A DNA stretch of 64,000 nucleotides from Carettochelys insculpta. Taxonomy: Eukaryota; Chordata; Testudines; Carettochelyidae. The notes beneath the pieces were generated by a model, which worked only from the letters and a program-made list of their open reading frames with translations, was not told where the DNA came from and made no database searches. Shown here piece by piece: positions 1 through 55,600 of the stretch (its first letter is position 1; every line of letters begins with the position of its first letter). The translations under genes were made by a program, and so were the position numbers. Where the stretch lies: NCBI RefSeq assembly GCF_033958435.1, contig NC_134138.1, positions 5,344,001-5,408,000 on the forward strand. The letters are read 5' to 3'.

Positions 1-151
1 TGGGCCGGCTGGGGGGGACGGGGAGGGAGCCGGAGCCGAGTCCCGGCCGGGTGAGGCTGTAGCCCTGCGCGTCTGCCTGGCGCGGGCCCCCCTTTGGCAG
101 GGTGGGGGCTGTATTGGAGCCGGGTGCCTCACTCAGGCCTGTGCGTTCCAG

Positions 152-52600: not shown

Positions 52601-55600
52601 CAGCTTGGCCCAGCACTCTGGCCCCTGCCCGCCACGCTGGGTCAGGATCCTGCAGGGCGCAGTCGCCTTCGTGGAGGGGCCCCCACTCTGGGGCTGGGGG
52701 GCCACAGCTGAGTGGGGGGGTGTCAGCGGCTCAGAGAGCTCCGCATCAAACAGCTGGCTTTGCGGCACATCCTGTGGGGGCTGAGCCACCTCTGCTGCTG
52801 GGCGGGAGACAGGGAACCCCGTGAGTTGGGCCCAGCCCCCAAGAGATGCCCCCCCACAGCACCACTCCCACCCGGCCTCACCTCGCCCCACCACCGCCTC
52901 CTTGAGCAGCTGCTCCATGGCTCGGCAGCGCTGGCGCGTCTCCTGGTCCAGGTCCCGGCCGTACATCCTCACCCACTCCCGGAGGGTGCCCAGAGGGCTC
53001 AGGCCCTGCGGCGGATAAGATGGAGGGGCTGAGCCTCAGGGCCGCCCCCAGAAACCCCACAGCTGTGCAGGGGTGCCGAGCCCAGCGCCCGCCCACAGGC
53101 CGCTGCTCCCCCACCTTGGCGTTCCTCAGCACCGCCGACGCGCCCCTCTGGAGCAGCAGCTCGGCCATGTCGAAGTGGCCGCAGTTAAGAGCGTCGTGCA
53201 GGGGGGTGATCCCCTCGCAGCCTGGGCCCCCGGGGTCATCGATGGAGGCACCACGCTCCAGCAGCAGCCGCACGATCTCTGGGCACAGGAGCCGGCAGTT
53301 ACTGCTGGGTGGCAGCACCAGGGCCCCCTCCAGCCGGCCCCCATCACCCGTTCCAGCCCCTGCCGTCATCCGCCCCCCACACCGACACCCTCCCACCCTC
53401 CTCACCACTCACCCAGGTGCCCGTGGTTACAGGCCTCGTGCAGCGGGGTCCAGCCGCAGTAATCCCGCGGGTTCAGGGGGTGGCCCTGCCCCCAGGAGGA
53501 AAGAGACATGAACAGGCATGAGGGTTACGTGGGGGCCAGGTGCCCTGCTGGGCTTCATGCCAACTCCCGCAGGATCTCCCCCTCCAGCTGCCCTCCCTGC
53601 AGGCCAGGCCAGGAAGCGGCCCCAGTGCCCAGCGCCTACCTGGCTCACTCCCACGCACCCTGCAGGCAGGACACACTTGCTGAACGCGTCCCCTGCTGGG
53701 GGCTGTGAGGGCCAGAGCAGAGGGACGCCGCGACCCCAGCCAGCCGCCCAGCTGCCCCCACGGGCCGACGGAAGGTACCGCAGGGCGCCCTGCCCGGGAA
53801 CGAGGAGCGGCTCCCACCTGCTCCAGGAAGAAATGGACCCGGCGCAGGTTCCCATCGATGCAGGCGCGGTGCAGCGGGGTCTCACCCCGGTCCTTGCGCC
53901 GGTTCCACTGCAGGGCACAGGGAGGGCGGAGGCGGGGTCAGCACTGCCCAGGGGCCCCAGATCAGAGCCACCCCCTCGGCCCCCCGCCCCGCGCAGCGCC
54001 CTGGGATCCGGCCTCGCCAGGGCAGGAGCTGGAGCGACGGCCCCACGGGGCGAGGACGCTGCGCCCAGGCCCAGCCTCACCTTGGCGACCCTGCGGCGGC
54101 CAGGCACGCTCTTGCTGTAGCCGTCCAGGTCATCTTCCTCCCCGTCTGGAACGCACAGGCCTGAGTGAGGCACCCGGCTCCAATACAGCCCCCACCCTGC
54201 CAAAGGGGGGCCCGCGCCAGGCAGACGCGCAGGGCTACAGCCTCACCCGGCCGGGACTCGGCTCCGGCTCCCTCCCCGTCCCCCCCAGCCGGCCCACTCA
54301 CCGCTCTCAGACAGCTCCAGGTCGCTCTCATCCAGGGGCTCGCTGCTGTCCTCCTCCTCCTCCTCCTCCTCCTCCCCCCGGCTGTCCCCGGCGCTGCTCC
54401 AGCCCTGCGAGCGGCACAGGCCCTGAAGCCTGGCCAGCGTGTCGGGGGCCTCAGGGCGCCCCCACTTCTGCTGCAGGGGGTGAAGGTGCTGTAGGATTTG
54501 CCGCTGGGGGGGTGAAAGGATGGGCTGATCACCCTGCCCAGCCGCAGATGGGGTTGGGCGCTCCCAGGGCTGCTAGCCCAGGCCTTGTCAGCTGGGGGCG
54601 CTGGCCTTTAAGGCAGTCCCCAGGGCCCCCTCCAGGCCTGAAGGGGCCCTGCAGGGAGCAAGGCCAGGGCACTGACCATTGGAGCAGCTCCCAGGTCCCC
54701 CAGCCCCTGCCTAGCCCAGAAGCAGCAGCTCCCAGCACTGACCACTGGAGCAGCTGCCAGGCCCCCCAGCCTGGCCCAGCAGACAGGCTACGAGTGAGGG
54801 GAGGACGCTGGCTAGGCACTCTCGAGTCCAGCCCCAGCACCGCAGCTGCCCTGGGCGCCTTTCAGCTCCGAGCCCCGGCACCCCACGCCCTTCCCCTGCC
54901 TTTCTGCTGTGCTGGCGCAGGAGGAGCCGGGTGCAGCCTGGAATCCTGGGCGGAGTGAGGAGCTGGGCTCCCCGGCAGGTGAGCAGCACGGTCCCTCCCG
55001 GGCATGTGCCAACAAGGAGCAGAGCCTGGAAGCGGGAGGGGGCCAGAAACCAGCACTTTCGGCCACAGGCCCTAGCAGGGAGGTGTTGTGCGTAGGGCGG
55101 GGGGCTGGGAGGACTCCTGGGTGCCAGTCTCAGTTATCGCAGGCTCGGGGGACCCCGGGAGGGGCACTGCCAGCTGCCCAGCCTGAAGGGGGTGCTGCAG
55201 GCGAGCACTGGCATCCCCATTGGGCAGCAGCTTTGGGCCCGTCCCCTCACCTGCAGCCTGGGCTCCCCAGCCTGCTCCGCGCACCGGAGCGCGCTCTGAA
55301 AGCAGGGCTCCAGGGCCTCGTAGCCTTCGCCAGCTTCCTCCCTGGCCAGGGCGATGTTCAGCCAGGTCTTCCCCTCCTGGGGCACACAGACAATGGGATT
55401 AGCTTCCCCCCACCAGTCCAGCTCCACTGGCAGGGAGCCCACCCAGGGGCACGGGGTAAGTGACAAAGAGCAACTCCTTTGCCATCCTGACTCTTACGCC
55501 TGCCCCACGCTCCTTCCCTGCTCCCGAGCTGTGGGGCCCAGCCAGGCCCTGCTTGCTAGCTGAGCTCCCCTCCCGCAACTCCCCAGAGCACGGCCAAGCC

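Follow-up and report, generated by a model that had tools for sequence, protein, structure and literature searches.

A TONSL-VPS28 palindrome in Carettochelys insculpta, read as one inverted pair of a 33-unit array

TONSL and VPS28 on the arms of a palindrome

The window, the whole 64,000-nucleotide stretch of Carettochelys insculpta DNA analysed here (C2:5344001-5408000), carries TONSL and VPS28 on each of two inverted arms that are separated by mobile DNA. Its features are listed below in window coordinates, with negative numbers for positions to the left of the window.

1..14986, plus strand: left arm, outside the minisatellite; inverted matches reach at least -19999, to the left of the window
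151..6984, plus strand: left TONSL, 3' portion, 15 exons in the window; belongs to a unit with the exon-1 deletion junction
8476..14908, minus strand: left VPS28 with an open frame in all nine coding exons; two replacements, R->C and N->S
15007..17651, plus strand: GC-rich minisatellite bordering the left arm on its inner side, units of ~42-44 bp, ~100 bp from the VPS28 start codon
17652..37444, no strand: spacer of mobile DNA and repeats, 19.8 kb
17652..18263, plus strand: dispersed repeat, MITE-like by eye, with an inverted copy at 34417-35028 (86% overall)
19320..26272, plus strand: LINE with two long open frames (1018 and 1340 codons from stop to stop), ORF2 with Exo_endo_phos and RVT_1 domains
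37445..39304, minus strand: inner border of the right arm, formed by the same minisatellite, shorter than on the left
39301..54296, minus strand: right arm, partner of 1-14986; the match goes on to 63681, followed by an insertion and by pieces over 73240-81720 outside the window
39379..45830, plus strand: right VPS28, likewise open in its nine coding exons; one replacement, P->L
47325..61438, minus strand: right TONSL, a pseudogene covering exon 2 through the stop codon, with three in-frame stops and a 2-bp deletion
62211..62237, minus strand: junction, in the right arm, of a 1.6-1.7-kb deletion of the TONSL CpG island and exon 1

Are these genes what the initial annotation took them to be? 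Both names proved correct. TONSL is recognised by TPR, ankyrin and leucine-rich repeats in the expected order, with the annotated protein P0121 as stand-in for the Pfam search (its last 375 residues are identical to those of units L022 and L024, and the TONSL copies of the window were aligned to it exon by exon). VPS28 matches solved structures, namely 6vme_E over residues 1-122 (1.6e-75) and 2j9w_A over residues 122-221 (3.8e-57). The two genes lie tail to tail in both arms, TONSL on the plus strand on the left and on the minus strand on the right, VPS28 each time on the opposite strand; in human, they are arranged in tandem. The left TONSL reads through 879 codons in the window without stop or frameshift, and the right one has its in-frame stops at 58248, 55713 and 49686 and the frameshifting deletion at about 48693. 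Each arm retains the nine coding exons and the stop codon of VPS28, all three replacements hitting residues common to Emydura, alligator and human, and, in the left arm as in the right, the sequence around VPS28 exon 1, beside the minisatellite, is poor in CpG (o/e 0.29 and 0.31).

Counted with the P0121 exon set as reference over 879 TONSL and 221 VPS28 codons, the arms differ by 20 missense and 11 synonymous changes, one nonsense change and one frameshifted codon, where the noncoding spectrum predicts 30.2 missense and 11.5 synonymous changes. At an omega-like ratio of 0.69 (P = 0.21 against neutrality, P = 0.0006 against an omega of 0.2), the coding differences between the arms look little constrained. 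Two other candidates within the genes were dismissed. A spliced alignment of the left TONSL ran one exon into its intron, as if a splice site had been lost, yet the donor GT is present, so no lost site is claimed. The tRNA-Cys that ARAGORN placed at 8929-9021 and 45285-45377 was treated as a false call: it overlaps exon 8 of VPS28, and the window has no Rfam family above threshold.

The palindrome itself is real. A blastn comparison of the window with itself gave one inverted match, 37445-54296 against 16870-1, of 16,958 columns at 96.7% identity with the minisatellite included. Outside the minisatellite, the arms differ at 159 of the 14,969 bases aligned (1.06%) and the alignment has 13 gaps, two of these being mere overhangs at the ends, and the same minisatellite edges both arms, the left one with an internal duplication of ~1.02 kb (95.6%). 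An inverted match so long and so identical is far beyond what chance produces. The differences, 100 transitions and 59 transversions, are scattered along the arm (variance/mean of 2.0 per 500 bp, the longest distance between differences being 565), and 56 of them are CpG transitions, divided 25 to 31 between the arms.

An arm of ~17 kb, as first proposed, describes the inverted match inside the window but not the true size of the arm, which the window start cuts; position 54296, taken for the end of the palindrome, is merely the partner of window base 1, and the match runs on rightward from it. Traced beyond the window with 50 kb flanks (L029-L033 added), inverted matches reach -19999 leftward and 81720 rightward, in pieces with insertions between them. 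One match that includes flanking sequence spans 22,963 columns at 98.6%, the main pieces are 96.6-99.1% identical, and one piece of 632 bp reaches 91.8%. Since the left side is still matching at the last flank base examined (-19999), the span on that side is a lower bound. The stretches covered amount to at least 37 kb on the left (-19999 to 17651) and at least 44 kb on the right (37445 to 81720, counting insertions such as 63682-73239). The inverted arms exceed 10 kb at more than 97% identity, as those of ampliconic multicopy palindromic arrays do.

The spacer, put at ~20 kb of mobile DNA in the initial annotation, is indeed of that size and repeat-rich. By eye, its LINE is L1/Tx1-like and possibly recently active. 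The 612-bp inverted repeat formed by 17652-18263 and 34417-35028 was considered as a part of the palindrome and set aside, because its divergence is mosaic (~6% in one part, 24% in the next) and the flanks hold related repeats, near -17.0 to -15.7 kb and at 90.5-91.1 kb. A hAT/ZBED-like open frame, likewise assigned by eye, lies at 62680-63999 and in the left flank (L029, -9518 to -8415); it runs uninterrupted for 368 codons in the left flank, a stop splits the right-arm copy, and the right-arm pieces gave no Pfam match at 0.001.

The 33-unit array and the TONSL exon 1 missing from most units

How often does this pair of genes occur in the genome? A TONSL 5' probe matched 33 units and nothing else, exactly once per unit (33 of 33 first-look candidates scored). 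A 2-kb TONSL 3' probe gave 28 matches at 97-100%, the remaining three of its 31 candidates, all scored, being matches of less than 100 bp elsewhere. The VPS28 probe returned 31 full matches and three pieces from two further units, hence again 33 units; here, 40 of 1,939 first-look candidates were scored, which beyond the 33 units were repeat matches, some on other contigs, and this number leaves room for a VPS28 copy outside the array. All 33 units fall within C2:3.17-5.55 Mb (2.37 Mb), 1.1-2.0% into a contig of 282 Mb, and they stand in both orientations. Alternation is in modest excess: compared with shuffled orders, plus-to-minus neighbours number 10 in 28 units (permutation P = 0.018) and 11 in 33 units (P = 0.039), and a runs test on orientation gives z = 2.08 and 1.77, respectively. 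One such plus-to-minus pair of neighbours forms the palindrome of the window.

Annotated proteins tell of the same multiplicity. Six C. insculpta entries named 'tonsoku-like protein', all on one contig with the 282,189,452-bp length of C2, are among the best 21 of a TONSL protein search and include the top three. They are not isoforms of one gene, because their mutual substitutions fall in the same exons. As P0121 does with L022 and L024, P0122 and P0127 share their last 375 residues with units L025 and L015, respectively. No shorter Carettochelys TONSL entry was found among the 120 matches listed of 1,062. One annotated copy, P0137, ends in 142 residues without a match in the window, owing to either another break point or a mispredicted end.

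Upstream of unit L024 (L034), TONSL exon 1 is found inside a CpG island. In both arms of the window, 1.6-1.7 kb comprising this island and exon 1 are missing, with an identical junction that on the left lies outside the window, at C2:5336028. The first ten TONSL residues have no good match in the 13 kb upstream of the left copy or the 32 kb upstream of the right one. A 27-base pattern across the junction occurs at 20 places in the genome (reversed control, 0), and a 29-base exon-1 pattern, allowing up to two mismatches, at eight (control, 0); the latter is exact in seven units, its source L024 among them, and has one mismatch in the eighth. The 33 units thus comprise eight with exon 1, 20 with the junction, five with neither and none with both. 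P0122 and P0127 come from units without the exon-1 pattern. Because exon 1 belongs to the gene in P0121 and in the entries of other turtles, the sequence comparison points to a deletion of exon 1 rather than a gain.

Relationships and selection among the units

To relate the units, 10 kb were compared from 22 of the 33 units: the two arms and 20 of the 26 others in which the 3' probe has a match. Pairwise differences average 1.08% (range 0.12-1.37%). At 1.00%, the arms are average relatives, each ranking sixth of 21 for the other; the nearest unit by distance is L022 for the left arm (0.74%) and L010 for the right arm (0.54%). The tree places the left arm with L018 at 3.75 Mb, 1.6 Mb away (100/99), and the right arm with L010 at 4.81 Mb, 0.6 Mb away (96/90), and a clade of the two arms is rejected (p-AU = 1.3e-6), so that neither arm has the other as its closest relative, in contrast to what arm-to-arm conversion would have produced. 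In an 11-row protein tree, the arms as sisters are not rejected (p-AU = 0.18), and eight Carettochelys sequences separate from those of three other turtles (100/100). In the first third of the DNA alignment, the left arm has L014 as its nearest unit (0.67%) and the right arm as its second nearest (0.69%). Members of the neighbouring inverted pair L024/L022, by contrast, are sisters (100/100). Across the 22 units, nearness on the chromosome is unrelated to similarity (Spearman -0.14).

Sequence is exchanged among the copies. Recombination is detected by PHI (P = 0.001) and by an Rm of 64, and L026 (C2:3568808) and L027 (C2:5198013) are 0.25% apart, yet the former has the deletion junction and the latter exon 1. 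The closest pair, L021 (C2:3236653) and L011 (C2:5250724), differs by 0.12% over 10 kb at a distance of 2.0 Mb, yet exon 1 is present in one member only, and the other lacks the junction as well. The few distant pairs as nearly identical as this could be partly haplotypic. An arrangement of the whole array as a mirror image, as expected of two joined haplotype arrays, was dismissed by eye: close pairs have no common centre, and their orientations disagree.

Do the coding exons bear traces of selection? Over the last seven TONSL exons, the 22 units show 39 missense, 16 synonymous and one nonsense change, against a neutral expectation of 56.6, 27.5 and 2.0 (omega-like 1.18; P = 0.76 against neutrality). 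For VPS28 exons 4-9, the counts are 21, 14 and two, against 29.2, 11.5 and 1.1 (omega-like 0.59; P = 0.088 against neutrality, 0.035 against an omega of 0.3), a ratio that may hide some constraint. An omega of 0.1 is excluded for both genes. The examined exons are open in 20 of 22 units for TONSL and in 17 of 22 for VPS28, the others (two and five, respectively) carrying a stop or an indel; in two of the five disrupted VPS28 units, the losses of 6 and 90 bases are multiples of three. Open frames in most units would also follow from youth alone. All seven of the exon-1 units examined lack stops and indels in the last seven TONSL exons, and their private variants (missense:synonymous 8:5) do not differ in ratio from those of the other units (25:7; Fisher P = 0.28).

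Origin of the palindrome and its place among known amplicons

A classic palindrome would arise by one recent local inverted duplication, its arms being kept alike by arm-to-arm gene conversion. In line with such an origin, the arms are nearly collinear over at least 37 kb, and the L024/L022 pair next to them does consist of sisters. The arms of the window, however, resemble each other no more than average and have their tree sisters 1.6 Mb and 0.6 Mb away, making this a very unlikely account of them. Alternatively, TONSL dosage could have been selected, in which case the eight exon-1 units would be working genes that raise the capacity to repair stalled replication forks. TONSL has a role in replication-coupled repair, and both the near-perfect conservation of the exon-1 pattern and the intact final exons of the units bearing it would suit this idea. 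The private variants of these units, however, show no distinct ratio, and VPS28 is amplified alongside, so that selection for dosage appears rather improbable.

The initial annotation had considered a false join of haplotypes, in which the assembler set two alleles of one locus head to head. Although 1.06% is within the reach of heterozygosity and the arm break falls inside a minisatellite, two haplotypes per locus stand against 33 units on one contig, the arms are not sisters, and the right TONSL copy has three stops and a frameshift. Furthermore, the window holds zero N, while the published assembly links contigs with 200 N (PMC10960847). A false join is thus highly improbable. Given 33 units, arms that are about average relatives and a rejected sisterhood, the palindrome is neither a joining of two haplotypes nor a simple inverted duplication in place. 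We agree with the earlier view of the region as unstable and rearranged, but hardly with its connection to sex chromosomes. Palindromic multicopy arrays have been described for Y and W chromosomes (PMC3403216 and PMC11168930), and the array might accordingly be a sex-linked or supernumerary ampliconic region. Against this, temperature-dependent sex determination has been demonstrated in C. insculpta (PMC8622242), the array sits on the 282-Mb contig, and TONSL/VPS28 entries of seven other turtles (Pelodiscus, Chelonia, Mauremys, Chrysemys, Lepidochelys, Dermochelys and Natator) sit on contigs of ~257-291 Mb, an Emydura entry being on one of 4.1 Mb and the remaining entries giving no contig. We consider sex linkage very unlikely, and the array to be probably autosomal.

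The window is, very probably, one inverted unit pair of a lineage-specific array of 33 TONSL-VPS28 units that mostly lack the TONSL promoter and exchange sequence with one another. In the history that we envisage, a unit first lost promoter and exon 1 of TONSL and was then, as the principal substrate, duplicated and inverted again and again, probably when repeats and minisatellites recombined or served for template switching; conversion and unequal exchange would have further spread and mixed the units. The palindrome of the window would have arisen when a rearrangement brought units from two different subfamilies to lie inverted to each other. The array would be young. Given the lost exon 1 and the neutral ratios, most units, including both in the window, probably make no normal TONSL, although annotated proteins (P0122 and P0127) exist for units without the exon-1 pattern. 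The ancestral function presumably persists in at least one of the eight exon-1 units.

A bolder scenario, which we hold to be unlikely, goes further: a promoter-deleting mutation would have spread to 20 of the 33 units of an actively rearranging, copy-number-variable autosomal amplicon in which eight exon-1 copies persist. If so, individuals of this long-lived turtle may differ in TONSL dosage and hence in genome stability. A term search in the accessible text of the assembly paper (PMC10960847) returned no mention of TONSL, tonsoku or VPS28, and the mainly open-access literature, judged by titles and the beginnings of abstracts, yielded no report of a TONSL duplication, expansion or palindrome in turtles or reptiles. 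A base quality of 54.9 is given in PMC13221643 for a scaffold-level C. insculpta assembly, possibly another one. For a housekeeping repair gene to be amplified genomically to 33 copies is unusual in a vertebrate with temperature sex determination. The array offers a natural experiment on the growth of inverted amplicons, on the exchange of sequence within them, on the spread of a disabling deletion and on the importance of TONSL dosage. Caution is called for, too, with the C. insculpta 'tonsoku-like' entries, which are members of one array and of which several are annotated without the true first exon.

How does the array compare with known systems? Large inverted arms, multicopy genes and exchange between copies are reminiscent of the ampliconic palindromes of primate X and Y chromosomes. 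Unlike those, the turtle array is probably not on a sex chromosome, its arms are not mutually closest, and it consists of housekeeping and repair genes, most units being without TONSL exon 1. False duplication by unmerged haplotypes, a known kind of assembly artefact, likewise leaves nearly identical duplicated gene blocks, but at most two copies per locus, compared with the 33 found here. The TP53 expansion of elephants (PMC5061548, PMC9108310) also multiplied a genome-integrity gene in one lineage, with about twenty extra copies. There, however, the copies are retrogenes, whereas in the turtle whole genomic units, with introns and a neighbouring gene, have been amplified in one array.
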